DNA from: Acidobacterium sp. S8
GTDB taxonomy: Bacteria > Acidobacteriota > Terriglobia > Terriglobales > Acidobacteriaceae
Reading direction: 5' to 3'
Length of the DNA: 64,000 nt
Assembly: GCF_009765985.1 (NCBI RefSeq)
Contig: NZ_LMUM01000034.1
Location: 159,508-223,507 of the forward strand
Every line of letters begins with the position of its first letter. Within the stretch, counting starts at the first letter, position 1. Under the pieces are notes generated by a model that saw only the letters and a list, made by a program, of their open reading frames with translations, was not told the origin of the DNA and searched no databases. Of this stretch, positions 3,998 through 46,126 are shown one piece after another. The translations under genes and the position numbers were made by a program.

Positions 3998-4135
3998 ACG
4001 GAAAATTCCGCTACTTCAAAAATAACATAGAAGTGACAACACCTTGCATGAGACCAGTCATTCTTATCGAGGGTGATTGTGTTGCGAGTTGCTTCAGGCG
4101 CGGCATCTCACCATGAAGGGGCACCTGAAACCTTG

Positions 4136-4981
4136 ATGAAGGAAGACAACCTACGCTTCAGAATGAGGAATCGTCATTTCCTGCCCGGAATTCTGCTTTT
4201 GCTGCTGCCTGTTGTTCCTGCACATGCGCAGACGGCGATTCAGCAGGGGTTCAACCGTTTATACAATCTGGATTTCTCAGGAGCTCATCAAAGCTTTGAT
4301 ACCTGGGAGAAAACGCATCCCACTGACCCGATGGGTCCGGTTTCTCATGCGGCGGATTTCCTCTTTGCCGAATTCGACCGGCTCGGCGTGCTTCAGTCGC
4401 AATTCTTTATCGACGATAACCGGTATGAGTCACGTAAGAAGGAAGCCCCTGATCCCAATATGAAAACAAAGTTCGATCAGGCGCTGAACGCGACAGATGA
4501 CCTCTCAAGTAAGGCCTTGGCTGCCAACCCTGACGATTCCAATGCGCAATTTGCCAAGGTCTTCGCGCTGGGGCTCCGGTCTGACTACGCCGCGCTGATC
4601 GAACGCCGCGATCTGGCCGCCATCAGCTATACCAAGCAGAGCCGGGCAATTGCTGAACAGCTGCTGAAGGAGAAACCTGATGCTTACGACGCTTACCTCG
4701 CCGTCGGAATCGAAAATTATCTAAGCGGAATCAAGCCTGCGCCGGTCCGTTGGATGCTGCAGCTGGGCGGAGTGCAGACCGATAAGGAAGCTGGCCTGCG
4801 CGACCTGGAGCTGACTGCGGCACACGGCGACCTGCTTGCGCCCTTTGCACGGCTTCTGCTGGCGGTGGCGGCATTACGCGACAAAGACACAGCAAAAGCG
4901 TGCAATCTTCTCAGCGGATTGTCAGCGCGCTACCCGCAGAACAGTCTCTATCGAAACGAAAAACAGCAGCGCTGCCACTAG
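4136..4981 (+). CDS. exported TPR-like protein of unknown function
   Basis: 281 residues from ATG 4136; the frame extends to GTG 4073, and ATG 4163 is also possible. No start has a convincing ribosome site. A hydrophobic signal peptide ending PAHAQ is followed by an all-helical, alanine-rich protein with pairs of helices spaced like degenerate tetratricopeptide repeats (AIQQGFNRLYNLDFSGAHQ; AFARLL-type segments near the C-terminus). No catalytic motif was recognised. It is probably a periplasmic protein used in protein-protein contacts, which is inferred from fold only. Its neighbours (tRNA-Lys upstream, topoisomerase IB downstream) give no clue. Confidence 0.65.
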   Translation: MKEDNLRFRMRNRHFLPGILLLLLPVVPAHAQTAIQQGFNRLYNLDFSGAHQSFDTWEKTHPTDPMGPVSHAADFLFAEFDRLGVLQSQFFIDDNRYESRKKEAPDPNMKTKFDQALNATDDLSSKALAANPDDSNAQFAKVFALGLRSDYAALIERRDLAAISYTKQSRAIAEQLLKEKPDAYDAYLAVGIENYLSGIKPAPVRWMLQLGGVQTDKEAGLRDLELTAAHGDLLAPFARLLLAVAALRDKDTAKACNLLSGLSARYPQNSLYRNEKQQRCH

Positions 4982-5119
4982 ACGAACTCTTCGAGCCCGC
5001 TCCGCCGGGATGATTTGATTGCTTGGATAATTCTGAGCTGGGCTTGCTGGCGCGCAAAAATGCGACATCGGGTCAGGCTGCATGATCGGGAGATTGCATC
5101 CAATATCATCGGCGCCGCG

Positions 5120-10712: not shown

Positions 10713-11090
10713 CTACTCCACGGCATTCTTCTGCCGCTTCTTCGTGCGCCCCAGCAGTTCATCGATTCGGGTCTTCATTTTTTCTGAGCGGTCTATGTGA
10801 AACGTAAGCTCCGGCACATGCCGCACGCCCATCCGTTCCAGCAATTCACGCCGGATATAACCCCGTGCCGCCATCAATCCTTCTACTGTCTTTGCCTCTT
10901 CTTCCGGGCCGCCATCGACGGCTACATAAATCAACGCCGACTTTCCCCCCGGGTTCAGCACCACTTGGCTGATATGGGCAAAACTGATACGAGGATCTGA
11001 TAACTCACCCTCGATCATGGCTCCAATCTCCTCGCGCAGCGTCTCCGCCACGCGATCCTGATGATATTTACGCGCCCGTTGTTCTGGCAT
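10713..11090 (-). CDS. rbfA: 30S ribosome-binding factor A
   Basis: 125 residues, the normal size. The KH-like fold is seen in the N-terminal helix with RVAETLREEIG, the segment SDPRISFAHISQV and the conserved basic patch RRELLERMGVRHVPELTFHID. RbfA helps late 16S rRNA processing and 30S maturation. It is followed by nrnA on the same strand. The upstream 0.6 kb holds no recognised gene, so rbfA probably heads this operon. Confidence 0.95.
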   Translation of the reverse strand: MPEQRARKYHQDRVAETLREEIGAMIEGELSDPRISFAHISQVVLNPGGKSALIYVAVDGGPEEEAKTVEGLMAARGYIRRELLERMGVRHVPELTFHIDRSEKMKTRIDELLGRTKKRQKNAVE

Positions 11091-11722
11091 TCTCTACTTC
11101 CTTTGGTTAAACGATTGAGAATATCAGACGAGACGGCCCTGGTCGCGTAAAAGTGAGCAAAAAGGTTGGAAATGGAGCCGGAACGAAGGTCCGGCATGCT
11201 GAAACAAGAAGTGTTATGAGTCTGACTCCCGAAGGATCGAGGCCAAAATGTAAAACGCCTGTGGATATTGATCCACAGGCGCTAACAATTCAGTAGCCCT
11301 CCCCCAAGTGCTACTCAATGTCTGAACTTTACCTTGGGTGAGAGCGGTTGCATATACCAATTTAGTTTCCAAAAATGGAATTGTCGTAACCAATAACAAG
11401 TTACCGTTGTCAGCCGAAGTGCTCCTTTTTCACGGGAATAGCGGGAATTACCGACCGTTCATTGGGCTAAATGCGCGCAATATTGCGAGACTTCAGGATG
11501 TTTTTCGACGAGGTTCACAGCTAGCAGTTAGAAGGATGAGCGCCGGCGGCAAAGTGAAGCATAGGCATAGCTAGGACAATCGCAGCAAACACACGACGCC
11601 GCTTTGATGGGCTTTCGTCGCAGGATTCGTCTTTTCCATGACAAAGGCAACTTTAGATGATTAGAATGTTCGCGTTTACATTCCGCACCTTAATCTGTTC
11701 TCTGAAGGAGAAGTCAAAAGAA
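11091..11722. other. 632-bp intergenic region, no convincing gene
   Basis: It separates divergent rbfA and the GH27 gene. One strong hairpin lies at 11256-11281. A minus-strand frame (11214-11399) has protein-like composition (WGRATELLAPVDQYPQAF) but only a TTG start and a stop a few codons upstream; it could be the decayed tail of a lost gene. The plus-strand promoter of the GH27 operon must lie near the right end, but no clear -35/-10 pair was found. Confidence 0.5.
11256..11281 (-). terminator. perfect 11-bp hairpin, terminator-like on the minus strand
   Basis: CGCCTGTGGAT and ATCCACAGGCG flank a 4-nt loop. Read on the minus strand the stem is followed by TTTTA, as in an intrinsic terminator. 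No gene ending just upstream on that strand was identified, which makes its job unclear. Confidence 0.5.
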
Positions 11723-12913
11723 ATGTCTCGTAGGAATATATCTGCATCCTGGGTTCTCTCGCTGTGCATGCTGGCCGCTCCGGCCGCCGCCATCGCGCAA
11801 TCCTCACAACTTGCCGCGACCCCGCCAATGGGCTGGAATAGCTGGAACCATTTCGCCACGAGGGTGACGGATGCCGATGTTCGCGGCGCAGCGGATGCCC
11901 TGGTCTCCAGCGGCATGCGAGATGCAGGCTATATTTACGTGAATATCGATGACTCTTGGGAAGCTGGGCGCGACGCCCAGGGCAACATCCAGACGAACAA
12001 AAAATTTCCCGACATGAAGGCCCTGTCTGATTATGTGCACTCGAAGGGCCTGAAACTGGGCATCTACTCTTCGCCTGGACCGCAGACCTGCGGCAAATAC
12101 GAAGGTAGCTATCAGCATGAAGAGCAGGATGCCAAAACCTATGCAGCATGGGGCATCGATTACCTGAAGTACGACCAGTGCAGCTACGGCAAAATCATTC
12201 AACAGGAAGCGGGCAACGATCACGAAAAAGCTTTTGCCATGCAGAAGGACTCTTACGACAAGATGTACAAGGCTCTTAAAGCCACCGGTCGCCCGATTGT
12301 TTTCAGCATGTGCCAATACGGTTTGAACAATGTGTGGGAGTGGGGAACCGAGGTGGGCGGCAACCTGTGGCGTACCACCGGCGACATCAACGATCACTAC
12401 ACGCGCATGGAACAGATCGGCTTCTCGCAGGCCGGGCTCTCAAAGTACGCTGGGCCGGGACACTGGAACGATCCTGACATGCTCGAAGTCGGCAACGGCG
12501 GCATGACCGACGACGAATACCATCTGCACATGACGCTGTGGGCGATTCTGGCTTCGCCGCTCCTCGCCGGAAACGACCTGAGCAAGATGAGCCCCGAGAC
12601 GCTGGCGATTCTCACCAATAAAGAAGTCATTGCCGTCGACCAGGACGCACTCGGCAAGCAGGGCGATCGCGTCTGGGCAGAAGGTCCGAGTGAAGTATGG
12701 GCAAAGCCGCTCTCCGGCGGAGCTAAGGCTGTTGCGCTCTTCAATCGGGCGGAATCAGCACGGCCTATCACGCTCAAGCTCAAAGACGTGGGCTTCGGCA
12801 ACAATGCGAAGCTGCGCGATCTGTGGGCGGGCAAGGAAGTCACGGCCACGAATGGCAGCTACACGGTGCTGATTCCGAAACACGGAACGGTGCTGCTCAA
12901 AGTCAGCCAGTAG
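11723..12913 (+). CDS. secreted alpha-galactosidase, GH27
   Basis: 396 residues from ATG 11723, chosen because AAGGAG lies 12 nt upstream and a signal peptide ending AAIAQ follows directly; the frame extends to 11657. GH27 features: TPPMGWNSWNHF at the start of the barrel, YVNIDDSW, the nucleophile region YLKYDQC, the acid/base region LWRTTGDI, and PGHWNDPDML. A small beta domain follows. It removes terminal alpha-linked galactose outside the cytoplasm. It begins an operon with an MFS transporter three bases after its stop, and galT at 2.8 kb can use the released galactose after phosphorylation. GH27 also contains alpha-N-acetylgalactosaminidases, so the exact sugar is not proven. Confidence 0.92.
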   Translation: MSRRNISASWVLSLCMLAAPAAAIAQSSQLAATPPMGWNSWNHFATRVTDADVRGAADALVSSGMRDAGYIYVNIDDSWEAGRDAQGNIQTNKKFPDMKALSDYVHSKGLKLGIYSSPGPQTCGKYEGSYQHEEQDAKTYAAWGIDYLKYDQCSYGKIIQQEAGNDHEKAFAMQKDSYDKMYKALKATGRPIVFSMCQYGLNNVWEWGTEVGGNLWRTTGDINDHYTRMEQIGFSQAGLSKYAGPGHWNDPDMLEVGNGGMTDDEYHLHMTLWAILASPLLAGNDLSKMSPETLAILTNKEVIAVDQDALGKQGDRVWAEGPSEVWAKPLSGGAKAVALFNRAESARPITLKLKDVGFGNNAKLRDLWAGKEVTATNGSYTVLIPKHGTVLLKVSQ

Positions 12914-33920: not shown

Positions 33921-36578
33921 ATGGCAGACGATCAGAACCCACTACTTCCCCTCGGCAATGGCGGCAATGACGGTCCCACAGGACCTGGCGCAGCCAACCT
34001 CGTTCCGATCAACATTGAAGACGAGATGCGGAATTCGTATCTCGCGTATTCCATGTCGGTCATTATCGGTCGCGCTTTGCCCGACGTTCGCGACGGACTG
34101 AAGCCGGTGCATCGCCGCATTCTCTATGGCATGCACGACATGGGCCTGCAGCACAATAAAAAGTACACCAAGTGCGCCAAGGTTGTCGGTCATGTGATGG
34201 GCAACTACCATCCGCACGGTGACTCGGCCATTTACGACACCATGGTGCGTCTCGCGCAGCCCTTCAGCATGCGCTACGTGCTGGTCGATGGTCAGGGCAA
34301 CTTCGGCTCTGTCGACGGCGATATGCCCGCGGCCATGCGTTACACCGAATCCCGCATGACGAAGCTCGCAGGTGAGATGCTCGCCGACATTGATCAGGAG
34401 ACGGTGGACTTCGTTCCGAATTATGACGAATCGACCTTCGAGCCGTCGGTGCTTCCTGCACGCGCTCCGAATCTCATCATTAATGGCGCGAACGGCATCG
34501 CCGTCGGCATGGCGACAAATATCCCACCGCATAATTTGACGGAAGTGGTGAACGCCGCTATTGAAATGGTGAACAACCCGCACGCCGGTCTCGAAGAAGT
34601 GCTCAAGCATGTGCAGGGGCCGGACTTTCCGACGGGCGGCTTCATCTATGGTCGCAGCGGCATTGCCAACGCCTACAAAACGGGTCGCGGTCGCTTCCTT
34701 ATGCGCGCCAAGTGCGCCATCGAGAATCTGAACCAGGGGCGCCAGGCGATCATCGTCAGCGAGATTCCTTACCAGGTCAACAAGAACACGCTCATCAAGC
34801 GCATCGCTGAACTGGTTAACGAGAAAATCATTGACGAGATCTCCGACGTACGCGACGAGAGCGACCGCGACGGCATGCGCATCGTCATCGAGCTTAAGCG
34901 TGGAGCCGAGCCGCAGATCATTCTCAACCAGCTGTACAAGCACTCGCAGATGCAAGAGAGTTTCTCGATGATCTTCCTTGCCGTGGTCAACAACCAGCCA
35001 CGCGAGCTTCCGCTGCATGAGGCGATCCGCCACTTTCTCGACCACCGCGTCGATGTGGTCCGGCGCCGCACGGCCTTCCTGCTGCGCAAGGCGCGTGAAC
35101 GCGAGCACATTCTGCTCGGCTACCAGATCGCACTCGATCACCTCGACAATGTCATCAAGATCATTCGCGGATCCTCTTCGCGTGGCGATGCACGTGAGAA
35201 CCTGTTCCAGTTCTTCTCCGGCAAAACCATCACTGTGCGTGACCAGGCGCTTGTAGGCGTCAAGCTTGATCCAGCGCGATACGCTATCGATCCGGCAACG
35301 CTCATCTCGCCGACGCTGACTCTCAGCTACCGCCAGATCGACGCCATCCTCGAATTGCAGCTCTATCGCCTCACTCAGCTCTCGATCGACGAGCTGCTCA
35401 AGGAACTGGCTGATGTACGTGGCCGCATCGATGAATACGAATCGATTCTAGGTTCAGAAAAGAAGCTGCGTGCCGTCATCGTCAAGGAACTCGAGGCCGT
35501 CCGTAAGGACTACGGCGACGAGCGCCGCACGCAGATCATCGACGAGACTGCCGAGCTGCAGCTCGAAGACCTGATCGCAGACGAGCAGGTTGCGGTAACT
35601 GTTTCGCATCAAGGCTACCTGAAGCGGACACCGATTTCGACCTATCGCCAGCAGCGGCGCGGCGGGCAGGGACGCACCGGCATGAAGACGCGCGAAGAGG
35701 ATTTTGTTTCGCAGCTGATTGTCGATTCAACGCACGCCTTCCTCCTCTGCTTCACCAACACGGGACGGGTGTACTGGCTCAAGGTGTACGAGATTCCCGA
35801 CGTCGGCGCAGCAGGCAAGGGAAAGTCGATGCAGAGCTTGCTGAACCTGCAGCCAGGTGAGACGGTTCGTAATATTCTGCCGGTACGCAACCTTGAAGAA
35901 GACGGCAAATTCATCTTCTTCGCGACGCGTAACGGAACGGTCAAGAAGACGCCGCTCAAAGACTTCTCGAATGTCATGGCACGCGGCATCATCGCTATCG
36001 GCGTCGATGAGGATGACGAGCTGATTGGCGTTCGTCTTACCGACGGCCACCAGATTGTCTTTCTCGCCACACACGAGGGCATGGCGATCCGCTTCGATGA
36101 GAACGATGTGCGCTCGATGGGCCGTCCGGCCCGCGGCGTGCGCGGCATCGACCTCGGCAAGAAGGATTATCTCGTCGGACTTGCGGTCACTCCGCATGAG
36201 CGCAGGAAAGACGAAGGCGGCGTCAACTGCGACTGCCTCATTCTCAGCATCACGGAGAACGGCTTTGGCAAGCGCACTGATGTGGACGAGTATCGGCTCC
36301 AAACGCGCGGCGGCAAGGGAGTCATTAATGTAAAGACGACGGTTCGCAACGGCAAAGTCTCGTCGATCCAGTTGGTGGATGAAACATCGGAACTGATGGT
36401 GATCAGCCAGTACGGCAAGATCATCCGCATCGACACCAAGACGATCCGCGCGGCCGGACGTTCAACGCAGGGCGTGAAGCTGCTCAACCTCGAAGACGAG
36501 GACAAGGTAGCGGCCGCCGTCGTCATTCCACCTGAAGAAGCCAAGCAGGAAGCGGAGAATGGGACGTTACTCCAATAG
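33921..36578 (+). CDS. gyrA: DNA gyrase subunit A
   Basis: 885 residues from ATG 33921 (the frame extends to 33864). [19 protein letters not shown] begins the conserved part. The quinolone-determining region reads [19 protein letters not shown], with Ser and Asp at the usual sensitive positions, and the active tyrosine is in AAMRYTE. The C-terminal DNA-wrapping propeller carries the GyrA box QRRGGQG, which argues for GyrA over ParC. It breaks and rejoins DNA for negative supercoiling with GyrB, which is not in the window. Confidence 0.97.
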
Positions 36579-36598
36579 CATCCTGAAAAATAAAAAGA

Positions 36599-36638
36599 GC
36601 GAAGAGGGCATCGAAAGAAATTTCGATGCCCTCTTCGC
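36599..36638 (-). terminator. very stable hairpin with GAAA loop, terminator of the minus-strand gene
   Basis: A perfect 18-bp stem from 36599-36616 with 36621-36638 and a GAAA loop on the plus strand. On the minus strand it is followed by CTCTTTTTATTTTT, a good U-tract, so it should end the exported-protein gene at 36652. On the plus strand it lies 21 bp after gyrA but has no U-tract. Confidence 0.85.
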
Positions 36639-36651
36639 ATCAGGGAGCAAC

Positions 36652-37068
36652 TTATTCGGATTGAGCGTTGATCGTCGCTTCTTCGATCGGGAGATGATTG
36701 CTTGCCAGTTGCCTCTCTCGTTTGCCGGTGGAGAGCGAAGCCACCATGCCATCGTTTCCACCTTCAATCCGACGCAATACGTAGTCGGTCGGATAATGAA
36801 GAAAGGTTAATTTCGCCTGACTTGGGCGCGCTTCGCCCGCAGAAATATGAAAAAGGACGCTTCTCTTGCGATCGGCTGAGCTCACCCTCCATATCCGGTT
36901 GAGTTGCACCTCATAAATCAGGTAGCTGCCTGCCGGCAATCGGGCGTTCTCGACGGTGAAGGCGAACGGTATATCGACCTTCATCAATGGCCTGTCGTCT
37001 ATCTGCGCATGCAGAAAGCAGGCCGGCGATAACAGAATGCAAACAACAAATAGGAAAAGTGCTTTCAT
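36652..37068 (-). CDS. small exported protein of unknown function
   Basis: 138 residues from ATG 37068, chosen because a full AGGAGG lies 6 nt upstream; the frame extends far upstream (to 37353) without a ribosome site. A signal peptide ending FLHAQ is followed by a compact beta-rich domain with VDIPFAFTVENARLPAGSYLIY, a pattern I associate with a family of exported acidobacterial proteins of unknown role. It ends at a strong terminator. It is divergent from the DUF6599-like gene with a 162-bp gap. Confidence 0.8.
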   Translation of the reverse strand: MKALFLFVVCILLSPACFLHAQIDDRPLMKVDIPFAFTVENARLPAGSYLIYEVQLNRIWRVSSADRKRSVLFHISAGEARPSQAKLTFLHYPTDYVLRRIEGGNDGMVASLSTGKRERQLASNHLPIEEATINAQSE

Positions 37069-37230
37069 GGGATCCCTCCTTGGCTTGCCTTGAAAGCATC
37101 GTGAAGCTGTTACGCTCGTTGCGCGATCTGGATTGGGCGAACTGTTCTCTTCTACTGGCCAGCGGCGTGAATGGACGGGAGATTTCCTGCAGCGAAACTC
37201 CGGCGGTGGTAGTCTCAACAACAAGCCGTT

Positions 37231-38349
37231 ATGTTGCGCCGCCTGCTTTCCATCGCTGTTCTCGCTATCGCTTCCACCTGTCTCCACGCTTCGAAGACGT
37301 CTGCTGCGCCAGCGCAACCACCGCTGCTTCCTTCTGATTTCGCCGGTTGGCATCAGGCAGCAGCTCCAAAGAGCAGCACTGCGCCGGAAGCGGCCGATCA
37401 GACCGACGCACCAGCCTTACGCGAATATGGCTTCACCGAATTTGATTCCGCCAACTACACCCAGGCTGACAACAAGCTGAACATACGGGCGATCCGCTTC
37501 GCCGATGCCACCGGCGCGTACGGCGCGTTTACTTTCTACCGACGGCCCGGCATGCTGAAGGAGGACATCGGCAGCAACGGAGCTTTCGATGGCGTGCGCG
37601 TCCTCTTCTGGACAGGCGCAACGCTGATCGACGCCACCTTCGACCATCTGACGGCGATGTCTGCGGCACAGCTGCGCGAGCTCGCCGCCGATCTGCCAAA
37701 GATCAGCGGTCCCAGCTCGGTAGCGCCTCCGCTTCCGAAATATTTCCCTCCGGCCTCTCTCGACCAGGGAACCCTGCGTTACAGCGTCGGTCCGGTTGCT
37801 TATGCACGAAGTGGCGGCGTGCTTCCCGCGACGGTGATTGGCTTTGACCGTGATGCGGAAGTGGTGACGGCAAACTATTCCACCCAGGACGGCGACGGAA
37901 CGCTGACATTGCTCATGTATCCGACACCGCAGATGGCCATCCATCAGGAGCAGGCGATTCAGGCGCTGCTAAAGGCCGGCAATTCGCCGCAGGCAGCATG
38001 GCCTCAGCCGTTAGCCGAGAGCAGCCCTGTGAGCCTGCTGGTGCGCCGCAGCGGCCCCATCGTCGCGATCACCAGCGGTAGCTTCTCTGTAAATGAAGCG
38101 CATAAGCTTCTGAATGCGATTAACTACAACGCCGACATCACCTGGAACCATCCCGAAGGTTACGTGAGCGAAGCCTCGAAGACCGCGCGGCTGCTTCTCG
38201 GCATTGCCTACCTCACTGGAATTCTTGGCGGCGCAGCCATTATCCTTGGGCTGTTTTTTGGTGGAGGACGCGCAATGTTTCGCAGACTTCGCGGCAAACC
38301 CGCGTCAACTCTGAACGAGGAAGACTTCATCAGCCTGAAGTTGCGGTGA
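37231..38349 (+). CDS. DUF6599-like exported membrane protein
   Basis: 372 residues. Signal peptide near the N-terminus (MLRRLLSIAVLAIAS), then a globular part with LREYGFTEFDSANYT, FADATGAYGAFTFYRRPG and LTAMSAAQLRELA, and one C-terminal membrane span (LTGILGGAAIILGLFFGGG) with a short basic cytoplasmic tail. The pattern matches my recollection of DUF6599, found in Acidobacteriota, without known function. Probably anchored in the inner membrane with its main domain in the periplasm. Confidence 0.78.
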   Translation: MLRRLLSIAVLAIASTCLHASKTSAAPAQPPLLPSDFAGWHQAAAPKSSTAPEAADQTDAPALREYGFTEFDSANYTQADNKLNIRAIRFADATGAYGAFTFYRRPGMLKEDIGSNGAFDGVRVLFWTGATLIDATFDHLTAMSAAQLRELAADLPKISGPSSVAPPLPKYFPPASLDQGTLRYSVGPVAYARSGGVLPATVIGFDRDAEVVTANYSTQDGDGTLTLLMYPTPQMAIHQEQAIQALLKAGNSPQAAWPQPLAESSPVSLLVRRSGPIVAITSGSFSVNEAHKLLNAINYNADITWNHPEGYVSEASKTARLLLGIAYLTGILGGAAIILGLFFGGGRAMFRRLRGKPASTLNEEDFISLKLR

Positions 38350-38526
38350 CCGTTGATTGCACCGATTCATGTGCAATATGAATTAAATCGAAGAAAATAA
38401 ACGCCCTTGCAACGGGCAAACCGACCATAGGCGAAAATTAGGCAAAGATAAACCGGCTTGATATTAGGAAAGTCAATGTCCGTAATAGGTTGATTCTCGA
38501 AGATTTATATTGCTCCGGATTTTGCC

Positions 38527-38555
38527 TTGACACCCCTACGGAGTGCCCATAGTAT
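38527..38555 (+). promoter_or_regulatory. sigma70-type promoter TTGACA-N17-TAGTAT
   Basis: The -35 TTGACA (38527-38532) is perfect, the spacer is 17 bp, and the -10 TAGTAT (38550-38555) differs from consensus at one position. Transcription would start near 38562. There is no good coding frame just downstream. Confidence 0.7.
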
Positions 38556-38560
38556 TTCGC

Positions 38561-38650
38561 CAGAAAGTTCTGATGGTTTTGCCTCCGTTGGAACTATTCT
38601 CCCTAAAGAGAGAAGCCGCCCTGTTGCCGGGCGGCTTCTCTCGTCTAATT
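38561..38650 (+). ncRNA. candidate small RNA, about 80-90 nt
   Basis: It starts just after the promoter at 38527-38555 and ends at a hairpin with a 14-bp perfect stem (38608-38621 with 38629-38642, loop TGTTGCC). The leader between has a CCTCC stretch (near 38582) that could pair with ribosome sites. The U-tract after the hairpin is weak (CGTCTAATTT). No known RNA family was recognised. The alternative is an untranslated leader of an unseen gene or a stray terminator. Confidence 0.4.
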
Positions 38651-38894
38651 TCCCTTGTTGTCAACCAGAAATTGCTGATCTGTTCCGCAAAAAAAAGCAA
38701 ACGAGATGGGTGTGGTGGTCATCCGAACCCTATGCCCAAATACGGATTGCCCGGCGGTCATGCACAATATCAGTAGGAAAAATACAGCTAAGATCATCTC
38801 GTTCTTATCAGTTGATGCCGTAGTGAAAGGGGTGGCGCTATAACCGCACCACAGTGTACGACGTAGCCGCTTTGCGATAAAATCCAAAGAGCAG

Positions 38895-38970
38895 GCCGAC
38901 GTAGCTCAGTTGGTAGAGCAGCCGATTCGTAATCGGCAGGTCACCGGTTCAAGTCCGGTCGTCGGCTCCA
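38895..38970 (+). tRNA. tRNA-Thr (anticodon CGT)
   Basis: The acceptor GCCGACG pairs with CGTCGGC. D-loop AGTTGGTAGA, anticodon loop TTCGTAA on a GCCGA/TCGGC stem, T-loop GGTTCAAGTCC, and encoded CCA. 76 nt including CCA. Confidence 0.97.
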
Positions 38971-39381
38971 GTGTCACTCCGAAACATAACCGAGGCAGCA
39001 GGCCACGAGGCAAGCCTCAACATGTGGTTCTGACACTTAGGCTGGGCGAATGTTTTTTTGGCATACGTCATCCGTTTGGCGAAAAGCAGCATGCTTTCCT
39101 GCGCTTTTATTCATCATTAAAAATCTTGTAATCAAATACTTATGAAGCTTTAGACATCATGGGCTTGAGAAGTATTTGGCCGTCGGCAAAGGGCTGGGCT
39201 TGCGCAAGGCTTAGCACAAGCTGTTCGCGCGGTCCCCCTTGGCAGGCTCAGGGCAGGCCCTTTGACTGCGCTCATGACCACGGCATTTAAGCCGGGGAAG
39301 TTGTCTCGCTGAGCGGTTCTTTTTGGGCTGTTTTGGGGCGATCTTGTCTGGTTGGTTCGACATACAGTAGTCCGGAAAATT
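38971..39381. other. 411-bp intergenic region after tRNA-Thr
   Basis: No gene was recognised. The right part holds a degenerate dispersed-repeat-like sequence (39228-39286). No attachment-site duplication of the tRNA 3' end was found within the window. Confidence 0.5.
39228..39286. repeat. possible dispersed intergenic repeat
   Basis: CTTGGCAGGCTCAGGGCAGG and TTTGACTGCGCTCATGACC resemble the 'AGGCTCAGGGCAGGC...GACTGCGCTCAGG' intergenic repeats seen in many bacterial genomes. Only one copy is in the window, so this rests on memory of the pattern. Confidence 0.35.
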
Positions 39382-40242
39382 ATGATGGCTGCCATGTCTG
39401 CCAGCCGCCGGGATTTTCTGCGTTATAGCGCTTTTGCTGCCGCCTCCACCGTTGCTGTTCCTTCTCTGTTTGCCAAAGGCAAAAAGACCGCGCCGTTTCA
39501 ACTGGGCATGTGCAGCTATACCTTTCGCGAGTTTGACCGGGCGCATGTCATCCAGTTCATGAAAGAGCTGAAGCTCACCAATCTGAATGCCAAGGACGCG
39601 AAGGACCATCTGCCGATGTCTTCGGCCGAAGCCGAGGATCAGGCTGTTGCAGATTACAAGGCGGCCGGCATCAAGCTGACCGCCGTCGGGGCTGTCTATT
39701 TTCCCAAAGATGATGACGACGATGTGCGCACCCGCTTTGAATATGCGAAGCGTGCGGGAGTGAAGGTCATCGTTGCGGGTGATCCGACGCCGGAAGCGCT
39801 GCCACGCATCGAGAAGTTTGTGAAGGAGTATGACATCCGGATCGCCATCCATAACCATGGGCCGGAGGACAAGATCTGGCACTCGCCGCTGGATGTGCTC
39901 AATGCGGTCAAGGGCATGGACCCGCGCATGGGCTGCTGTATCGATGTGGGCCACACGGTACGAACGGGGACGGATGTGGTAGCGGCGATCAAGGAAGTGG
40001 GACCGCGCCTCTTCGATGTGCATATGAAGGATTTGACCGATTTCAAGGCGAAAGAAAGCCAGGTGGCGGTGGGCGATGGCAAGATGCCTGTGCGTGAAAT
40101 CTTCGAAGCGCTGGTTGCGATCAATTACAAGGGCGACGTTGACTTAGAGTACGAGGTACATGGGGATGATCCTATGCCCGGGGCTACTAAGAGCATTGAC
40201 TATATACGCAAGGTGCTGGGGGAGATGGGATATCAGGGGTGA
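39382..40242 (+). CDS. Tat-exported sugar phosphate isomerase/epimerase-like protein (xylose isomerase-like TIM barrel)
   Basis: 286 residues from ATG 39382. The N-terminus carries a twin-arginine signal (SASRRDFLRYSAFAAA), so the folded protein is probably sent to the periplasm. The mature part is an AP-endonuclease-2/xylose isomerase-like barrel: LGMCSYTFREFD, IAIHNHGPED (metal-binding His/Glu-type strand), GCCIDVGHTVRTG and LFDVHMKDLTDF. Members isomerise or epimerise sugars using a divalent metal; the exact substrate is unknown. It stands alone, with no sugar operon next to it. Confidence 0.85.
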   Translation: MMAAMSASRRDFLRYSAFAAASTVAVPSLFAKGKKTAPFQLGMCSYTFREFDRAHVIQFMKELKLTNLNAKDAKDHLPMSSAEAEDQAVADYKAAGIKLTAVGAVYFPKDDDDDVRTRFEYAKRAGVKVIVAGDPTPEALPRIEKFVKEYDIRIAIHNHGPEDKIWHSPLDVLNAVKGMDPRMGCCIDVGHTVRTGTDVVAAIKEVGPRLFDVHMKDLTDFKAKESQVAVGDGKMPVREIFEALVAINYKGDVDLEYEVHGDDPMPGATKSIDYIRKVLGEMGYQG

Positions 40243-40283
40243 CGTTTTTTGGCTATTAATCTGGATATGCGCGAGATATATCG

Positions 40284-40625
40284 CTATAGGTGGTCATGGA
40301 CTTTGTTGAGTGGCGGCAGACAGCCGTCAGTCAACTCGTACTGATTGATCCATCCTCTCTCATATGCATTCAGTTGAATGACCTCCTTCAAAGTCAAAAT
40401 CGAAACTAAAGAAGCTTTGCCCAAAGAAGTCATTTCTCGATTGCGACCTGCATCTAGGTGTTGCAGCAGACGGCTACTGATGCATGTGGCTTGACCGATA
40501 TAGAGGATATCTCCTCCCGCATTAGTAAGAACATAGCACCCAGGACCGTTTCCGACAGATCGGACCGGCAAATACTCGAAGGGTGTCAGAGGTCCAGGAG
40601 ACGGAATCAAGGAAGTGACTTTCAA
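40284..40625 (-). CDS. stand-alone GIY-YIG nuclease domain protein
   Basis: 113 residues. The GIY-YIG active site can be followed fully: GCY (29-31), LYIG (41-44), Arg52 in SSRLLQHL, Glu89 in AYERGWI and Asn107 in LNKVH. These enzymes cut one DNA strand with one metal ion; stand-alone domains occur in restriction, mobile element and repair settings. The likely start is TTG 40625, which overlaps the TGA at 40622-40624 that closes the DGQHR frame (TTGA), so the two are translated as a pair. The segment is less GC-rich than its surroundings. A host target or role is not visible. Confidence 0.85.
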   Translation of the reverse strand: MKVTSLIPSPGPLTPFEYLPVRSVGNGPGCYVLTNAGGDILYIGQATCISSRLLQHLDAGRNREMTSLGKASLVSILTLKEVIQLNAYERGWINQYELTDGCLPPLNKVHDHL

Positions 40626-41752
40626 AATACGGGGTCTCCCGAAACTTGGGGAACGTTAATAGCTGCAGACAATGCATTGGCATATTTGCGTATAGACGCT
40701 CTATTTATGCCGGAGGCCGTATTGCCGCGGTACCAAAACTGAGGCTGGGCCATGCCGAGAAATTCAGTCGGGAGGTTTTCGAAACCATGGGCGAGAAGAT
40801 TGACTATAGTTTCTTCCTTGAAATCCTGCCGATTCGTGAGATGCAGAAATACAGCGGGTCATGCTCCGTGAAAGAGTTCCAATCCATTCGTTCGAAACAC
40901 AACGGAAATCTCATTGTCCTTATCGACTAGTAATCTTTTAATAGCTCGCCAATAATTGAGGAGTACCTTTTGCTGCTTTTCTACTGTCCAGGCGGGGCCT
41001 CCTACCGGATTAGAGGGAACAAGTACATGTTTCTTGATCGATGTTACAAAGCTTTTCTGGTTCATAGATGAAGAACCAGACTCATCCTCACTATTGGCCA
41101 TAAGCACCCGCCCCTTCCAAGGTGAATCCGGAGATATATTTAAGAAATTCACAATAGCTAGAGCACGTTGATCCTCGCCGCGGTCGACTTGACGCTGAAT
41201 CCAACGTGGAAGCACCGGCATTTTCTTGAAGTTAATCAAGTCCGTGAGACGAGCAACGATTTGCTGCTCGATTGCAACATCAACTTTCTGGGTCGTATTC
41301 ACAATAAGAAAATGACACATCTGGCTGATTTCATCGAGATCGACAGCAATATTGACTGGAACCTCGAACGAATCTATCGACGCATCCTTTTCCGAGGCAA
41401 GGATAAGTCCCCGAATACGATGCTGGCCGTCAACCACATTGAAGGCACCTACTCTTTCCGTGTCAATGGTAATCGTGTTAGTTTCTTCGTCGAAAGGAAG
41501 TAGTTTGTCCGTGGCGAGAAAGATCGATGTGGGCAGGAAGGCTTCTTTCTCTCGATGTCCCTCAAGGAGATATTCTGACAATCGTTTCGCCCGTGCTTCG
41601 TTGAGTACGCGCTGGTAACCAACGCCTAAGCCTGAATCAGGCGTTTCGATTTTGAAGAAATTAGGTATCTTCAAGTCTTTTATCCGCAAGCTAGAAGCGA
41701 ATAAGCAAAGATTTCCCTGCAGTATCTTGCTTGCTGGGCGCTTAATAAGCAT
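40622..41752 (-). pseudogene. DGQHR-domain (DndB-like) protein interrupted by an in-frame TGA
   Basis: The frame opens at ATG 41752 and codes 297 residues with DGQHR at 108-112 (NVVDGQHRIRGL) and an NEARAKRLSEYL helix, both typical of DndB/DGQHR proteins, which are linked to DNA phosphorothioation control and to mobile islands. TGA at 40859-40861 ends it after LELFHG-A. The same frame then stays open for 78 codons of clearly protein-like sequence (PAVFLHLTNRQDF; FWYRGN; NRASIRKYANAL) and stops at TGA 40622-40624, which overlaps the GIY-YIG start. A full product would be about 376 residues. I read this as one gene with a nonsense change or a base error; a 297-residue form is the alternative. 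Confidence 0.78.
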
Positions 41753-42168
41753 TGACTAGTTTCTCCCTAAAATATGTCCATCTTAACCTATCATCACTTT
41801 TGCCAAACTTTCGGATAAAGTTGCAATCAAGAGACACACATTTCTGTCATTCATCGGTCGATGCGCTCCCACCCGGCTTTGCTGGTGACATGGGGTTGGT
41901 TGCTTGCAATCGTCAATGGTTCTTGATGACAGACTTCCGCAAACGTGCATGGAAGGATTTATTGTCGGAAGATGGCTGTTGGAGCTTTCACCAGCCTGAA
42001 AGACCGGTGCTTCTGCCGAAAGGCTTGAACATTCTGCGGACTTGGCATGGTCCGGATCAAAGCGTGATCCGCCAAGGCAGCGGATGCTGCATCTCCGATT
42101 CTTCGTCACTTTATTCCTCAGAATCACGGCCGCTTACGCGGGAAATATCGAAGCCTTGAGTGCTCGCC
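41753..42168. other. 416-bp region with no supported gene
   Basis: Two overlapping opposite frames (plus 41752-42159, minus 41783-42127) span it. Neither has a ribosome site, a known motif or natural-looking composition. A GACCGGTGCTTCTGCC stretch near 42001 is similar to the 19-bp repeat unit at 60684. It may be remnant DNA of the accessory segment. Confidence 0.45.
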
Positions 42169-43113
42169 TTACGCCATGTTTTGCAGCGTGGCGTTGATGT
42201 CGTTCAATGAAAAGACCTGCACGGGCCAGCGGGTGCCTTTGTCCGCGAGGGTGGCCTTGATCTTTTCGCGCTCGTCGTCGCTTGTGACCAGCAGCAGGAT
42301 CTGCATCTCGTTGAAAAATCCTTCGAAGAGGGCGACGGCTTCAGGCTGGATGATTCCCATTTTGACGCGCTGGGGCAGCGAGGCGACGCGCTCCTTGACA
42401 ATGTCTTCGAGCGTGCGGATACGCCAGAGAATGGTTTCGGTACGGAGGGCGGTGAAGTTGCCGAAGTAGAGATAACGCATGCCGTCGAAGGTCATGAGCA
42501 TGGTGAAGCCGAGGGGCTGGCCCATCTGAAAGAGGCTGCGATCGCCTTCGCTGGTGATGGGCACGACGAGCAGGCGCTGCGAGAGCAGGAAGGATTCGAC
42601 GATCTGATCGGGGGTGAGGACGGGCGCGACTTCCTGACCGGTGGCGGCGATGGCGACATCGATAGCTTCGGCAGCCTGACGGGCGAAGGTTTCATTGGAG
42701 TACTTGATGGTGTCGAGTCCGGCCACGTTGAAGGGCAGACGCTGCGAGTCCCGCTGAAAGGGGATGACGTATTTGTTGAAGCCGAGGACGAGGCCGTATT
42801 CCATGTTGACGTTGGCGCTGGGGCTCTCGACGCCGTCTTTGACGCGATTGTTGGCGAGGATGATGCAGAACTGCGACTGGATGATCTTGGAACAGATCTT
42901 GGCGCAGAAGGCGCTCTGGCCGGGCGCGATTTCACCGGCGGCCTCGATGCCTTCAATGCCACGCTTTTCCAAAAGCGTTCGCAGGATGGTCATCTCGAGA
43001 GCGCTCTCGCTGAATCCATAGCCGATGAAACAGGTGCGCGAAGAGGAAAAAACAAAATCGCAGCGTGGAAGGCCTATGACGCAGAATTCATTCCGGCGTA
43101 TCCGTTTGTCCAT
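42169..43113 (-). CDS. TIR / nucleoside deoxyribosyltransferase-like protein
   Basis: 314 residues. Residues about 26-120 have a flavodoxin-like order: TCFIGYGFSESALEM, then CAKICSKIIQSQFCIILAN and NVNMEYGLVLGFNKYVIPF, where Glu105 stands where TIR-like and deoxyribosyltransferase-like enzymes place a catalytic Glu. TIR domains of bacterial defence proteins (Thoeris and relatives) break down or cyclise NAD; whether this one does is inference. The C-terminal half (about 145-314) is unrecognised and ends in an alpha/beta segment (EMQILLLVTSDDEREKI). It lies on the same strand as, but 416 bp upstream of, the DGQHR/GIY-YIG pair. Confidence 0.6.
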   Translation of the reverse strand: MDKRIRRNEFCVIGLPRCDFVFSSSRTCFIGYGFSESALEMTILRTLLEKRGIEGIEAAGEIAPGQSAFCAKICSKIIQSQFCIILANNRVKDGVESPSANVNMEYGLVLGFNKYVIPFQRDSQRLPFNVAGLDTIKYSNETFARQAAEAIDVAIAATGQEVAPVLTPDQIVESFLLSQRLLVVPITSEGDRSLFQMGQPLGFTMLMTFDGMRYLYFGNFTALRTETILWRIRTLEDIVKERVASLPQRVKMGIIQPEAVALFEGFFNEMQILLLVTSDDEREKIKATLADKGTRWPVQVFSLNDINATLQNMA

Positions 43114-43307
43114 TTCTCAACTCCTGATGCCAGTGCTTTAGCTGCTTCGGTTGCGTGCTGGATGACCATTAGGGGAGAAGAATACAGGGCCGTGACATCG
43201 CGGTGTCGCGAATAAAGGGCATTATAAGACTGCTTTCAGCGACGCGCTACGAGAATGATGAAGGCGCCTTCCGTGCATAATGGGGATGCATCCGGAAAGG
43301 AATCGGC

Positions 43308-43937
43308 ATGTATATTCCGAAGTTCAACGAGGAGACGCGAGTTCCCGTTATCCATCAGCTGATGCGGTCGCATCCGCTGGCTTCGCTGGTGACGTTTGGC
43401 GCGTCGGGGTTGTTTGCTTCGCATCTGCCAATGGTCCTTGATGAGCGAGCTGCGCCCTTTGGGATGCTGCGGTGTCATGTATCGCGGGCAAACGCGCAGT
43501 GGAAGGATTTCGATCCAGACGTGCAGGCGCTGGCTATCTTTTCCGGCGCGGAGCATTACATTTCTCCGGCGTGGTATGCGGAAAAGCAGGCGACGGGCAA
43601 GGTGGTTCCGACATGGAACTATGTGGTGGTGCATGCCTATGGCTATCTAAAAGTGATGGACGATGTTGTGTGGCTGCGGGCGCATGTGGAGAGCCTGACG
43701 AAGATTCATGAGGCGGGCATGCAGAATCCATGGGCGGTGAGCGATGCTCCAGAGGAGTATGTGGCGCCGATGCTTAAAGGGATTGTCGGATTGGAGATGA
43801 AGATTGAGCGGCTGGAGGGTAAATGGAAGTTGAGCCAGAATCGCTCGGAAGAGGATCGCCGCGGAGTGGTGGAAGGGCTGGAGGATGGCGGCGAGATGAA
43901 GCGGTTGATGCTGGATGCTCTGGAGGACCGAGGCTGA
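43308..43937 (+). CDS. PaiB-like FMN-binding protein
   Basis: 209 residues; ATG 43308 follows AAAGGAA. MYIPKFNEE at the N-terminus, then HPLASLVTFG, ASHLPMVLDE, HVSRANAQWKDF, ISPAWYAEK and VPTWNYVVVHAYG are the PaiB/FMN-binding split-barrel pattern. Family members bind FMN or haem, and B. subtilis PaiB is linked to control of degradative enzymes; some may be oxidoreductases. No partner PaiA-type acetyltransferase is next to it. The gene is followed by a hairpin with T6. Confidence 0.9.
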   Translation: MYIPKFNEETRVPVIHQLMRSHPLASLVTFGASGLFASHLPMVLDERAAPFGMLRCHVSRANAQWKDFDPDVQALAIFSGAEHYISPAWYAEKQATGKVVPTWNYVVVHAYGYLKVMDDVVWLRAHVESLTKIHEAGMQNPWAVSDAPEEYVAPMLKGIVGLEMKIERLEGKWKLSQNRSEEDRRGVVEGLEDGGEMKRLMLDALEDRG

Positions 43938-43947
43938 TTGCTAAAGA

Positions 43948-43986
43948 CCCAGGTTAGCTTCGCGAACCTGGGGCACCCGCTTTTTT
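43948..43986 (+). terminator. hairpin with TGGGGCACCCG tail, terminator of the paiB-like gene
   Basis: CCCAGGTT (43948-43955) pairs with AACCTGGG (43965-43972), followed by CACCCGC and T6. The 11-mer TGGGGCACCCG (43969-43979) recurs after the next gene at 44923, so this is both a terminator and a member of a repeated element. Confidence 0.65.
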
Positions 43987-44079
43987 CGTTTTGTAGATTT
44001 GCAGATTGGGTCCACTGATTCAACTGCTGCCTGCTTCGCGTATCGGGTTCTCGTCATGCTAGACTCAGCGGTTCACCTT

Positions 44080-44862
44080 ATGAGTTACGAAAATATTCTT
44101 GTGGAAGTGCGTGAGCCGATTGCTGTTGTGACTTTTAATCGGCCCAAGGTGTTGAATGCGTTAAACGGGGCTACGCTGCGCGAGCTGGATGCGGCGATCA
44201 TAGAGCTGGCTGCGCATGCGGGCGTCCGGGCGATTCTGCTGACGGGAGCTGGCGAGAAGGCCTTTGCTGCGGGGGCCGATATTCAGGAGCTCGCCGCTGT
44301 ATCGGCGGTAGATGGACATGCGCTGGCGATGCGCGGACAGCAAGTCTTCGATCGAATTGAGAATTGCGGCAAGCCGGTGATTGCGTGCGTGAACGGCTTT
44401 GCGCTGGGCGGCGGATGCGAGCTGGCGCTGGCGTGCACTTTGCGCATTGCCAGCGAGACAGCGAGGTTTGGCCAGCCGGAGGTGAAGCTGGGGATCATTC
44501 CGGGATATGGGGGATCACAGCGGCTGCCGCGGCTGGTGGGCAAGGGCGCGGCGCTCAAGCTGCTGCTTACGGGCGAGATGATTTCGGCTGCGGAGGCTTT
44601 GCGCATCGGGCTGGTAGAGGAAGTAGTTTCGCCGGGTGAGCTGTTGGCGCGCGCGGAGCAGATTGCGAAAGCGATTGCCGCGCAGGCTTCGCTGGCGATT
44701 GAAAAATGCCTGGAAGCGGTACATGCGGGGTACGACTTGCCGCTGCGGCAGGCGCTGGATCTCGAGGCTGCGCTCTTTGGGATTTGCTGTGCGACCGAAG
44801 ACAAGACGGAGGGCACGAAGGCTTTTCTGGAAAAGCGCACAGCGGTTTGGACTGGGAAGTAG
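44080..44862 (+). CDS. enoyl-CoA hydratase/isomerase (crotonase) family
   Basis: 260 residues from ATG 44080, the usual crotonase length; ATG 44056 is also in frame. The oxyanion-hole segment AFAAGADIQEL, the turn FALGGGCELALAC and PEVKLGIIPGYGG, with both expected catalytic glutamates, are intact. It adds water to 2,3-enoyl-CoA in beta-oxidation or a related pathway. An acyl-CoA dehydrogenase lies 17 kb away on the other strand, so the two are not an operon. Confidence 0.92.
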   Translation: MSYENILVEVREPIAVVTFNRPKVLNALNGATLRELDAAIIELAAHAGVRAILLTGAGEKAFAAGADIQELAAVSAVDGHALAMRGQQVFDRIENCGKPVIACVNGFALGGGCELALACTLRIASETARFGQPEVKLGIIPGYGGSQRLPRLVGKGAALKLLLTGEMISAAEALRIGLVEEVVSPGELLARAEQIAKAIAAQASLAIEKCLEAVHAGYDLPLRQALDLEAALFGICCATEDKTEGTKAFLEKRTAVWTGK

Positions 44863-44898
44863 GACTGGTTTGTAGTCGGTGCGCTGTCCCAATCCCAC

Positions 44899-44933
44899 CC
44901 TTTCGCAAAAAGCGCGAAAGGATGGGGCACCCG
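44899..44933 (+). repeat. hairpin plus TGGGGCACCCG element, second copy
   Basis: CCTTTCGC (44899-44906) pairs with GCGAAAGG (44914-44921), followed by the same 11-mer at 44923-44933. It lies 37 bp after the enoyl-CoA hydratase gene. There is no U-tract, so it is a weaker terminator than the copy at 43948. Confidence 0.6.
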
Positions 44934-45001
44934 ATGTCGGAGATTCTCAAATCGCGGAATCCGCCTTATCAGTATCCCGCCCATGTGCTTCGCACTTGTG
45001 T

Positions 45002-46126
45002 CTATTCGGATTTCGGTGGCCCGGACATCTTTCTCACCACTGCTTCATCTGTCTTCTGGTGGAGTTCGTTTGTCCTGGCGAACTCGGCTTGTGCCTGCTG
45101 CTTCTTGCCCATGGCGGAGTAGAGACGCGCGAGGCGCCAGTGCGCGTCGGGTTGCGAGGGATCCATCTCAATGGCGCGTTTCAGATTGGCTGCGGCTGCT
45201 TCGTTCTGATTCTGCGCGGCATCGACGATACCCATATCGAGGAAGGCGAGGCGGGTTGCGCCCTGCTGCGCGACGGCCTGCTTGAGGTAGTTCGCGGCGG
45301 TAGCTTCGTCATTGCGTTTGAGCGCGATGTCGCCTAAATAAGTAAGCGCTTGCGGGTGATTGGGGTTCTCTTCGAGTTCGAGTTTGAATTCAGCCTCGGC
45401 TTCGTCATACTTGTGCTGCTTCCAGAGCATGTATCCCAGGCCGAAGTGAACTTCAGGTGTGTGCGGATCAGCTTTGGCCGCGGCGCGGAATTGAGCGATG
45501 GCGTTGTCGGTCTGGCCGAGGCCGTCGAAGGCTTCGCCGGCGAGGATGTCGGCCTGGGCGGAATCGGGCGCTTGCTGGAGGATGAGTTGGTATTGCTCGA
45601 GCGTGCACTGATATCGCGCGGCCCACAGGCAGCTTTGCGCGAGCGTGGTGCGCAGCTGAAGATTTTCGGGCGCCGCTGCTACTGCCGTTTCAAGATAAGG
45701 GATCGCTTCACCGTATTGCCCTGCCCCGTAATAGCTCATGGCGAGAAGAAGCTTTGGCCGCGTGTCTTCTGGCGCTTCGGCGGCGGCGGCTTTTAACGGC
45801 GAGATGGCGTCTTTAAATTTTTCCTGCTTGAAGAGAGCGAGGCCGAGATCGAGTTGCAGGCCGGGAGCCTTGATGCCAAGTTCGAGCGCTCTGCGATAGG
45901 CGGGGACGGCCTCGGCATAATTGCCTTCGAGCGCGAGGGTGAGGCCGAGCTGCGCCCATGCGGCTGCGTCCTTAGGATTGGCTGCGGTTGCGGCTTCCCA
46001 TTTTTCTTCGGCTGCCGCGTAGTTATTTGGTGTGTCCTGCGCGAGGAGAAATGCGGGAATCAAAAAACAGGTAAGAAGGAATGAGAGACGCCGCACGCTG
46101 CACCCGAAAAAGTTAACTGGAAGCAT
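45002..46126 (-). CDS. exported TPR protein
   Basis: 374 residues from ATG 46126, which puts a signal peptide (SFLLTCFLIPAFLLAQ) near the N-terminus; an upstream ATG at 46171 would overlap the terminator of the neighbouring receptor gene. At least eight tetratricopeptide repeats follow (AWAQLGLTLALEGNYAEAV; HFGLGYMLWKQHKYDEAEA; ALTYLGDIALKRNDEATA). A periplasmic scaffold protein; partner unknown. It follows the Oar-like receptor on the same strand, but a terminator separates them. Confidence 0.85.
   Translation of the reverse strand: MLPVNFFGCSVRRLSFLLTCFLIPAFLLAQDTPNNYAAAEEKWEAATAANPKDAAAWAQLGLTLALEGNYAEAVPAYRRALELGIKAPGLQLDLGLALFKQEKFKDAISPLKAAAAEAPEDTRPKLLLAMSYYGAGQYGEAIPYLETAVAAAPENLQLRTTLAQSCLWAARYQCTLEQYQLILQQAPDSAQADILAGEAFDGLGQTDNAIAQFRAAAKADPHTPEVHFGLGYMLWKQHKYDEAEAEFKLELEENPNHPQALTYLGDIALKRNDEATAANYLKQAVAQQGATRLAFLDMGIVDAAQNQNEAAAANLKRAIEMDPSQPDAHWRLARLYSAMGKKQQAQAEFARTNELHQKTDEAVVRKMSGPPKSE

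Follow-up and report, generated by a model that had tools for sequence, protein, structure and literature searches.

Within a 64,000-nucleotide (nt) stretch of the Acidobacterium sp. S8 genome (assembly GCF_009765985.1, contig NZ_LMUM01000034.1, positions 159,508-223,507 of the forward strand; hereafter the window, whose own coordinates are used throughout), we identified a gene for a DGQHR-domain protein directly followed by a gene for a small GIY-YIG nuclease. The same two genes are adjacent in every relative found to span them and, judged by position in these sequences, form a real pair. In the window, the DGQHR gene is interrupted by an in-frame TGA, and relatives identify the open frame beyond it as the rest of the gene. 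Our favored reading, which we hold with reasonable but far from full confidence, is that the two genes make up a self-contained system that spreads horizontally and is directed against invading DNA.

Both genes lie on the minus strand. The DGQHR gene starts with an ATG at 41752 and reaches the TGA at codon 298 (40859-40861), giving a product of 297 amino acids (40859-41752, 297 codons plus stop) that comprises a putative ParB/sulfiredoxin (Srx)-like N-terminal domain and most of a helical part. Its signature pentapeptide (residues 108-112, 41417-41431) is identical in 10/10 relatives compared. Past the TGA, the frame remains open for 78 codons (40858-40625), which would encode the severed C-terminal helices, and is closed by a second TGA at 40622-40624. 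This stop shares the four bases TTGA (40622-40625) with the TTG start codon (40625-40623) of the nuclease gene, which encodes 113 amino acids and ends at 40284 (40284-40625). A first-pass annotation of this DNA had described the interruption, the 78 open codons and the overlapping start, and its coordinates are correct.

The GIY-YIG gene was directly downstream of the DGQHR gene in 11/11 relatives spanning the pair (loci L016-L024, L029, and L092), and the encoded nucleases were uniformly 112-113 residues long. The 4-nt NTGA overlap of the two frames was present in the window and in 9 of these relatives, while a 10-nt gap separated the genes in L018 and L019. The association was reciprocal from the nuclease side. 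When the window nuclease was used as the query, five plasmid records were matched, the same five that carry close DGQHR relatives; a nuclease profile retrieved three viral records, and a DGQHR profile retrieved these three plus L030, a contig that ends inside its DGQHR gene after about 150 residues and was left out of the 11 relatives. Several other loci repeat ones already counted: L027/L028/L039 and L036-L038 are L018/L019/L029 again, L001, L002, and L031 correspond to the window itself, L088 and L089 to the pairs of L017 and L092, and L032-L035 to earlier loci. The distances among DGQHR proteins and among nucleases were correlated, with a Mantel r of 0.925 for 12 pairs and 0.786 for 9 dereplicated pairs (L016 being represented by its downstream DGQHR piece), and 0 of 10,000 permutations reached either value. 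At E 0.001, a GIY-YIG profile detected no nuclease at 15 distant DGQHR loci (L003-L015 with ~1 kb flanks, L025, and L026), and the profile search found none in L090 or L091 either. Of the translational link proposed in the first-pass annotation, the adjacency and the 4-nt overlap are confirmed, and it is from these overlapping frames that we infer the coupling itself.

At the position of the window's TGA, each of the 11 relatives that cover it encodes an amino acid (serine in 10, cysteine in 1); none of them ends there, and all align past it with the window's 78 codons. These alignments identify the 78 codons as the true DGQHR C-terminus and agree with the earlier proposal of one DGQHR gene of ~376 residues carrying a single nonsense codon, the downstream codons of which resemble DGQHR C-termini. 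By itself, the open frame is not striking enough to be convincing, since the 234-base segment stayed open in 2.9% of its mononucleotide shuffles; it is homology that settles the question. The 78-codon frame also appears to be coding because the differences between the window and L016 after the stop are concentrated at the third codon position (23, 17, and 51 differences at codon positions 1, 2, and 3). Searched alone, the 78-residue piece matched no Pfam, NCBIfam, or PADLOC model up to E 1. With no family match of its own and an alignment as the DGQHR C-terminus, it is unlikely to have a separate function. An altered genetic code was rejected because the neighboring isomerase gene ends normally at a TGA (40240-40242).

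Since synonymous sites were mostly saturated, amino acid identity and codon-position counts were used instead of the ratio of nonsynonymous to synonymous substitution rates (dN/dS). Identity before and after the stop position was 67% and 56% between the window and L016, 59% and 49% between the window and L018, and 61% and 46% between L016 and L018; against L020, it was 53% and 27% for the window and 55% and 32% for L018. Because the segment after the stop is still coding-like and lacks consistent excess divergence, the interruption appears to be either young or an error. Judged from the sequence, the window copy is probably disabled, as the TGA cuts off the C-terminal helices. With its start codon overlapping the end of the full DGQHR frame, the nuclease is probably also translated less, through lost coupling, as a result of the TGA; a GGGAG located 10 nt ahead of the TTG might permit some independent nuclease starts. 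The window protein also lacks one residue, a serine just after an FxxxN motif that is present in 10/10 relatives compared. The DGQHR frame of L016, a metagenome-assembled genome (MAG), is interrupted as well, just after the DGQHR motif, and its nuclease has cysteine in place of the YIG-motif tyrosine, so this copy, too, could be degenerate or wrongly assembled.

The TGA could also be an error of sequencing or assembly in an otherwise intact window gene, which we consider unlikely. Only a single codon is affected, the coding pattern persists beyond it, and the assembly is a draft of 38 contigs; however, the listed completeness is 99.99% and the listed contamination 0.34%, figures that do not test single bases, and the absent conserved serine is a second unusual change in the same gene. 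Readthrough of the UGA, whether by selenocysteine insertion or at a leaky UGA-C, would yield low levels of full-length DGQHR protein that gate nuclease expression, and this we regard as highly improbable. The genome contains a tRNA-Sec and a SelB above their family cut-offs (71.1 versus 47 bits and 357.5 versus 242.25 bits; above cut-off in 5/14 and 2/14 control genomes, respectively), one of the 11 relatives has cysteine at the TGA column, the base after the stop is C, which creates a leaky stop context in E. coli, and no consistent excess divergence is seen beyond the stop. Nevertheless, serine rather than cysteine occupies this column in 10/11 relatives, the RNA that follows the TGA has no stronger predicted folding than shuffled sequences (z -0.35 to 0.76 over four folds), no Rfam family was matched at E 1, and the gene has a second unusual change in the missing serine. 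Independently of this locus, the tRNA-Sec (G000:C29:581321-581410) and SelB (C29:576816-578693) genes are ~3 kb apart in the window's genome, and the organism probably makes selenoproteins.

The window DGQHR protein scored 93.2 bits against TIGR03187 (cut-off 58.85, residues 7-290) and 50.8 bits against PF14072 (cut-off 29.1). It remained far below the equivalog cut-offs for DndB (TIGR03233, 15.4 versus 328 bits) and DpdB (NF041060, 46.6 versus 300 bits, over residues 4-275) and below that for DUF262 (PF03235, 17.5 versus 33.2 bits), and PADLOC matched it as a weak DpdB/DndB only. The product of the gene initially described as DGQHR/DndB-like is therefore better called a DGQHR-domain protein than DndB itself. 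DUF1524 had no match up to E 1 in either protein. At E 0.001, dndC (TIGR03183) was found in 0/11 genomes or records, a set consisting of the window's genome, two other genomes, three possibly fragmentary virus records, and five plasmids taken apart from their host chromosomes; among the Dnd and Ssp genes, the search covered dndC only.

We compared a structure model of the DGQHR protein, built from seven sequences (predicted local distance difference test [pLDDT] 74, predicted template modeling score [pTM] 0.48), with known structures using VIA-align. The top 13 rows were all ParB-type, with PadC the best match (Z 8.8, root-mean-square deviation [rmsd] 2.7 Å, 99 residues), and the next 12 (ParB, Noc, and KorB) had Z scores of 8.6-6.7, some at high rmsd. 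Lower rows, in the range where Z scores can be unspecific (<8), included sulfiredoxin (5.2), free serine kinase (~5), SspE (4.9, 3.8 Å, 122 residues), and BrxU (4.2, 3.9 Å, 110 residues), and a chain of the DndBCDE-DndI entry 9jfl aligned at Z 3.6. The modeled N-terminal domain is thus likely to have a ParB/sulfiredoxin-type fold. A search of PDB sequences with the DGQHR alignment profile returned no match up to E 1. The region encoded after the TGA was modeled as helices; averaged over blocks of 10 residues, its pLDDT was 48-92, except for a poor value of 31 at the C-terminal end.

The window nuclease matched PF01541 at 25.8 bits (cut-off 22.6) over residues 29-97 of 113 and contained no further Pfam domain. 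It carries the motifs GCY and YIG together with Arg52, His56, Glu89, and Asn107. Tyr31, Arg52, His56, Glu89, and Asn107 were identical in the 11 nucleases compared (the window and 10 others), and Tyr42 was present in 10 of them. Tyr31, Tyr42, Arg52, Glu89, and Asn107 are what we take to be the catalytic positions of GIY-YIG enzymes; all five are present in the window, so the predicted active site is intact as first proposed, with His56 as an additional conserved residue that had not been named. Against PDB sequences, the nuclease profile matched GIY-YIG domains of UvrC, glutaredoxin S16, and endonuclease II (E 2.8e-7 to 0.002), and PADLOC models gave the nuclease at most weak matches confined to a short stretch.

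The pair has a rare and patchy distribution. Relatives are in an Acidobacteria gp6 MAG (L016, 63% identity), IMG/VR virus contigs (L018 and L019, 57%; L029, 48%), a Bacteroidales MAG (L017, 49%), and plasmids of Cupriavidus and rhizobia (L020-L024, 45-48%); L092 is from another genome of the phylum to which L017's genome belongs. In the window's phylum, 1/396 genomes, the window's own, has the pair, with four further distant matches at E 1e-10, and in the phylum of genome G471, 2/395 have it, with two further distant matches at E 1e-12. Further viral scans using single relatives produced nothing or a record already found.

Several copies have mobile or defense-related neighbors. In L092, the gene next to the pair is SduA (Shedu, E 5e-123), a type II restriction-modification (R-M) pair is ~3.6 kb away, and the pair, SduA, and other genes are bracketed by transposase-like open reading frames (ORFs) at 4017-4991 and 10799-11773. 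These ORFs, presumably of the IS110 type, have the same length and at least the same first 90 residues, an arrangement resembling a composite transposon. L017 has a BglII-type R-M pair 1.3 kb downstream and the candidate defense gene PDC-S42 just upstream, and the gene that follows the pair in L016 is a PDC-S52 candidate. The L029 pair is antisense within a phage tail gene cluster, between the tape-measure gene and a gene matching phrog_2913. Near the pair, L018 and L019 encode a second DGQHR protein of 774 residues (L018 8397-10721 and L019 6997-9321, both minus strand), which in L018 has a weak PADLOC CARF_PDDEXK match at residues 91-190 and a sub-threshold HEPN-like end (15.7 versus 27.5 bits). 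Genes for a UvrD helicase and a PD-(D/E)XK protein surround the pair on a Sinorhizobium terangae plasmid. The DGQHR protein of this plasmid has an extra N-terminal stretch of ~138 residues (L022 7569-7982) that matches DUF5655 at 24.2 bits (cut-off 24), and the other rhizobial DGQHR copies are similar in length.

No description of a DGQHR and GIY-YIG pair was found in the open-access literature searched (unopened articles and subscription journals being outside its scope), in keeping with the first-pass statement that the pairing was not known as a described system. Systems related to its parts have been reported. GmrS is predicted to combine a ParB/Srx fold with a DGQQR motif that resembles DGQHR (PMC4619093), and in SspE, a DGQQR motif is needed for the GTP hydrolysis that licenses its nuclease domain, coupling recognition to activation (PMC13251355). 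DUF262 proteins occur with several kinds of partner, including an OLD-type nuclease (PMC10952713). The pair would be analogous to GmrSD and SspE, with different parts, and its DGQHR protein appears to be related to DndB and DpdB as well as to the DUF262 domain that GmrSD and SspE contain. With GmrSD and BrxU (DUF262 plus DUF1524), the pair would share a ParB/Srx fold, a DGQxR motif, and a nuclease partner, and these systems are also reported in separate-gene forms and in defense islands and mobile elements (PMC4619093, PMC10952713); it differs in having DGQHR in place of DUF262, GIY-YIG in place of the HNH-type DUF1524, and separate overlapping genes. SspE and DndBCDE-DndI are linked to it by the structural matches given above and, for SspE, by a DGQQR-bearing ParB-like domain that licenses a nuclease (PMC13251355), whereas the pair has a different nuclease and dndC was found in none of the 11 genomes or records (for plasmids, in the plasmid record only). 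DndB and DpdB belong to the same DGQHR domain family (TIGR03187 and PF14072), but the pair's protein is far below their equivalog cut-offs, is partnered by a nuclease, and again occurs where no dndC was found. GIY-YIG (URI) nucleases are mentioned in Dnd modification neighborhoods, a different setting (PMC10853773), and the role of DndB, the most familiar DGQHR protein, is debated, with transcription factor, NTPase, and nuclease all proposed (PMC10853773; PMC12839542 also discusses this debate). Finally, CMoRE/PD-T4-3 combines a GIY-YIG domain with a sensing domain in a type IV restriction enzyme and, like the putative system described here, places a GIY-YIG nuclease under a sensing part against phage DNA (PMC12923530); its sensor is C-terminal in a single chain, in contrast with the 112-113-residue nuclease of the pair, whose putative sensor would be the separate DGQHR protein.

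In the defense system that we favor, the DGQHR protein would sense foreign DNA, perhaps through a modified base or a structural feature, and would bind or hydrolyze a nucleotide. It would thereby recruit or license the minimal GIY-YIG nuclease to cut, presumably within a complex of the two proteins. At 112-113 residues, the nuclease is too small to include a DNA-recognition domain as well. The 4-nt overlap would ensure that the nuclease is not made without its controller. More tentatively, we suggest that such pairs constitute a class of two-gene anti-phage or anti-plasmid systems in which a free-standing DGQHR protein, DndB/DpdB-like but independent of the known DNA-modification pathways, serves as a nucleotide-driven sensor licensing a minimal nuclease, and which phages may carry as cargo against competitors, for example among tail genes.

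A number of observations count against this proposal. The sample is small, with 12 pairs including the window, and L021/L022/L024 as well as L018/L019 are nearly identical to one another. The comparisons beyond the window's TGA do not all agree, divergence being as between relatives when measured against L016, L018, and L017 and slightly higher against L020. The DGQHR model is of middling quality, its structural matches with Z below 8 may be unspecific, and Foldseek returned no PDB match for it at E 0.001 or better; the AlphaFold model of the nuclease (six sequences) is poor, with a mean pLDDT of 47. No defense gene was recognized among the listed neighbors in L020 and L023, most of which were not searched against any library. 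Moreover, DndB, itself a DGQHR protein, has been reported as a transcriptional regulator (PMC4507180).

In view of the repressor role described for DndB, the main alternative is a regulator or antitoxin paired with a toxic nuclease, in which the DGQHR protein represses or inhibits the nuclease in a DndB-like manner and the two form a toxin-antitoxin-like or addiction unit. The order of the genes, with DGQHR first and the frames overlapping, would suit such a unit, and 5/11 relatives are on large plasmids, where addiction units are common. The DGQHR protein is, however, far larger than usual antitoxins. In addition, an intact nuclease beside a damaged partner, as in the window genome, would be dangerous if the DGQHR protein were an essential inhibitor, unless translation of the nuclease has also been lost. 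DndB is reported to bind its own promoter and to regulate its own operon (PMC4507180); the known ParB-fold proteins with nucleases, GmrSD, BrxU, and SspE, act in restriction (PMC10952713). On balance, we judge a regulator-toxin arrangement to be improbable.

The pair could instead be a selfish mobility module, with the GIY-YIG protein a homing-type endonuclease that spreads the cassette between phages and plasmids and the DGQHR protein a DNA-binding helper. The antisense position of L029 in a phage tail cluster, the placement of L092 between two transposase-like copies, and the patchy distribution (1/396 and 2/395 genomes) are compatible with this, but the R-M and Shedu neighbors fit defense better, the short nuclease has no further Pfam domain and scored 12.3 bits against the 56.05-bit cut-off of the group I intron/homing model TIGR01453, and strict pairing with a large ParB-like protein is untypical of homing enzymes, making a mobility module quite unlikely.

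Returning to the surroundings of the window copy, the pair is enclosed by an AT-rich patch (40250-41999) in which six 500-base segments have 46-48% GC, whereas 27 of the 33 other segments in 36000-46000 have 53-64%, the lowest other one being 38250-38749 at 47%. No convincing flanking direct repeats that could mark island ends were found in 38700-43300. The nearest tRNA gene within the window (Thr, 38895-38970) is ~1.3 kb from the patch, with no tie to an insertion established. None of G001-G003, three genomes from the same genus as the window, contained a match to the DGQHR protein. Where the window has the pair, its sibling G003 carries instead a gene for a group II intron-type reverse transcriptase (L069 4320-5522), with identical genes on either side, a difference that is suggestive of a variable site but is not proof of a defense hotspot. 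The possibility that this enzyme is a defense reverse transcriptase (DRT) was dropped because Pfam shows a GIIM maturase domain.

Adjoining the pair, positions 42169-43113 (minus strand) encode a 314-residue protein with a TIR-like domain that scored just under the cut-off of PF10137 (21.4 versus 24.7 bits). This protein is rare in the family (2/60 genomes at E 1e-20, including the window's own) and is a possible defense effector. Farther away, a repeat of ~36-48 bp at 43943-43990, between flavoprotein and enoyl-CoA hydratase genes, recurs in similar form dozens of times across the genome, and some copies are present in sibling genomes.

DGQHR genes were also observed in other arrangements. 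In a second one, the DGQHR gene is directly followed by a gene for a protein of ~260-340 residues that had no Pfam match in the four tested (L025 7974-9953, L026 5737-7788, L040 3998-5868, and L041 3884-5813; also L004, L010, and L011). Its carriers are the inovirus PfAC19, plasmids of Burkholderia, Providencia, and Leptospira, and, as ORFs, three genomes of the window's family. Like the window pair, it places the partner directly after the DGQHR gene, but the GIY-YIG profile had no match at L025, at L026, or at the loci of the three family genomes; it is possibly another two-gene system. In a third arrangement (L042, L043, and L044), the DGQHR gene is immediately preceded by a gene for a protein of 157-207 residues, and genes for a DNA methyltransferase or for BglII-type restriction are close by. 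Loci L040-L046 were assessed by annotation only, and L046 has no annotation.

In its conserved combination with a minimal nuclease devoid of a recognition domain, the DGQHR protein offers a clean two-component case for DGQHR function. If the pair restricts phages, the ParB-fold-plus-nuclease principle known from GmrSD and SspE would gain both a new sensor and a new nuclease fold, and the pair would point to a family of DGQHR systems with other partners. DGQHR proteins in general might then be modular sensors with interchangeable partners.

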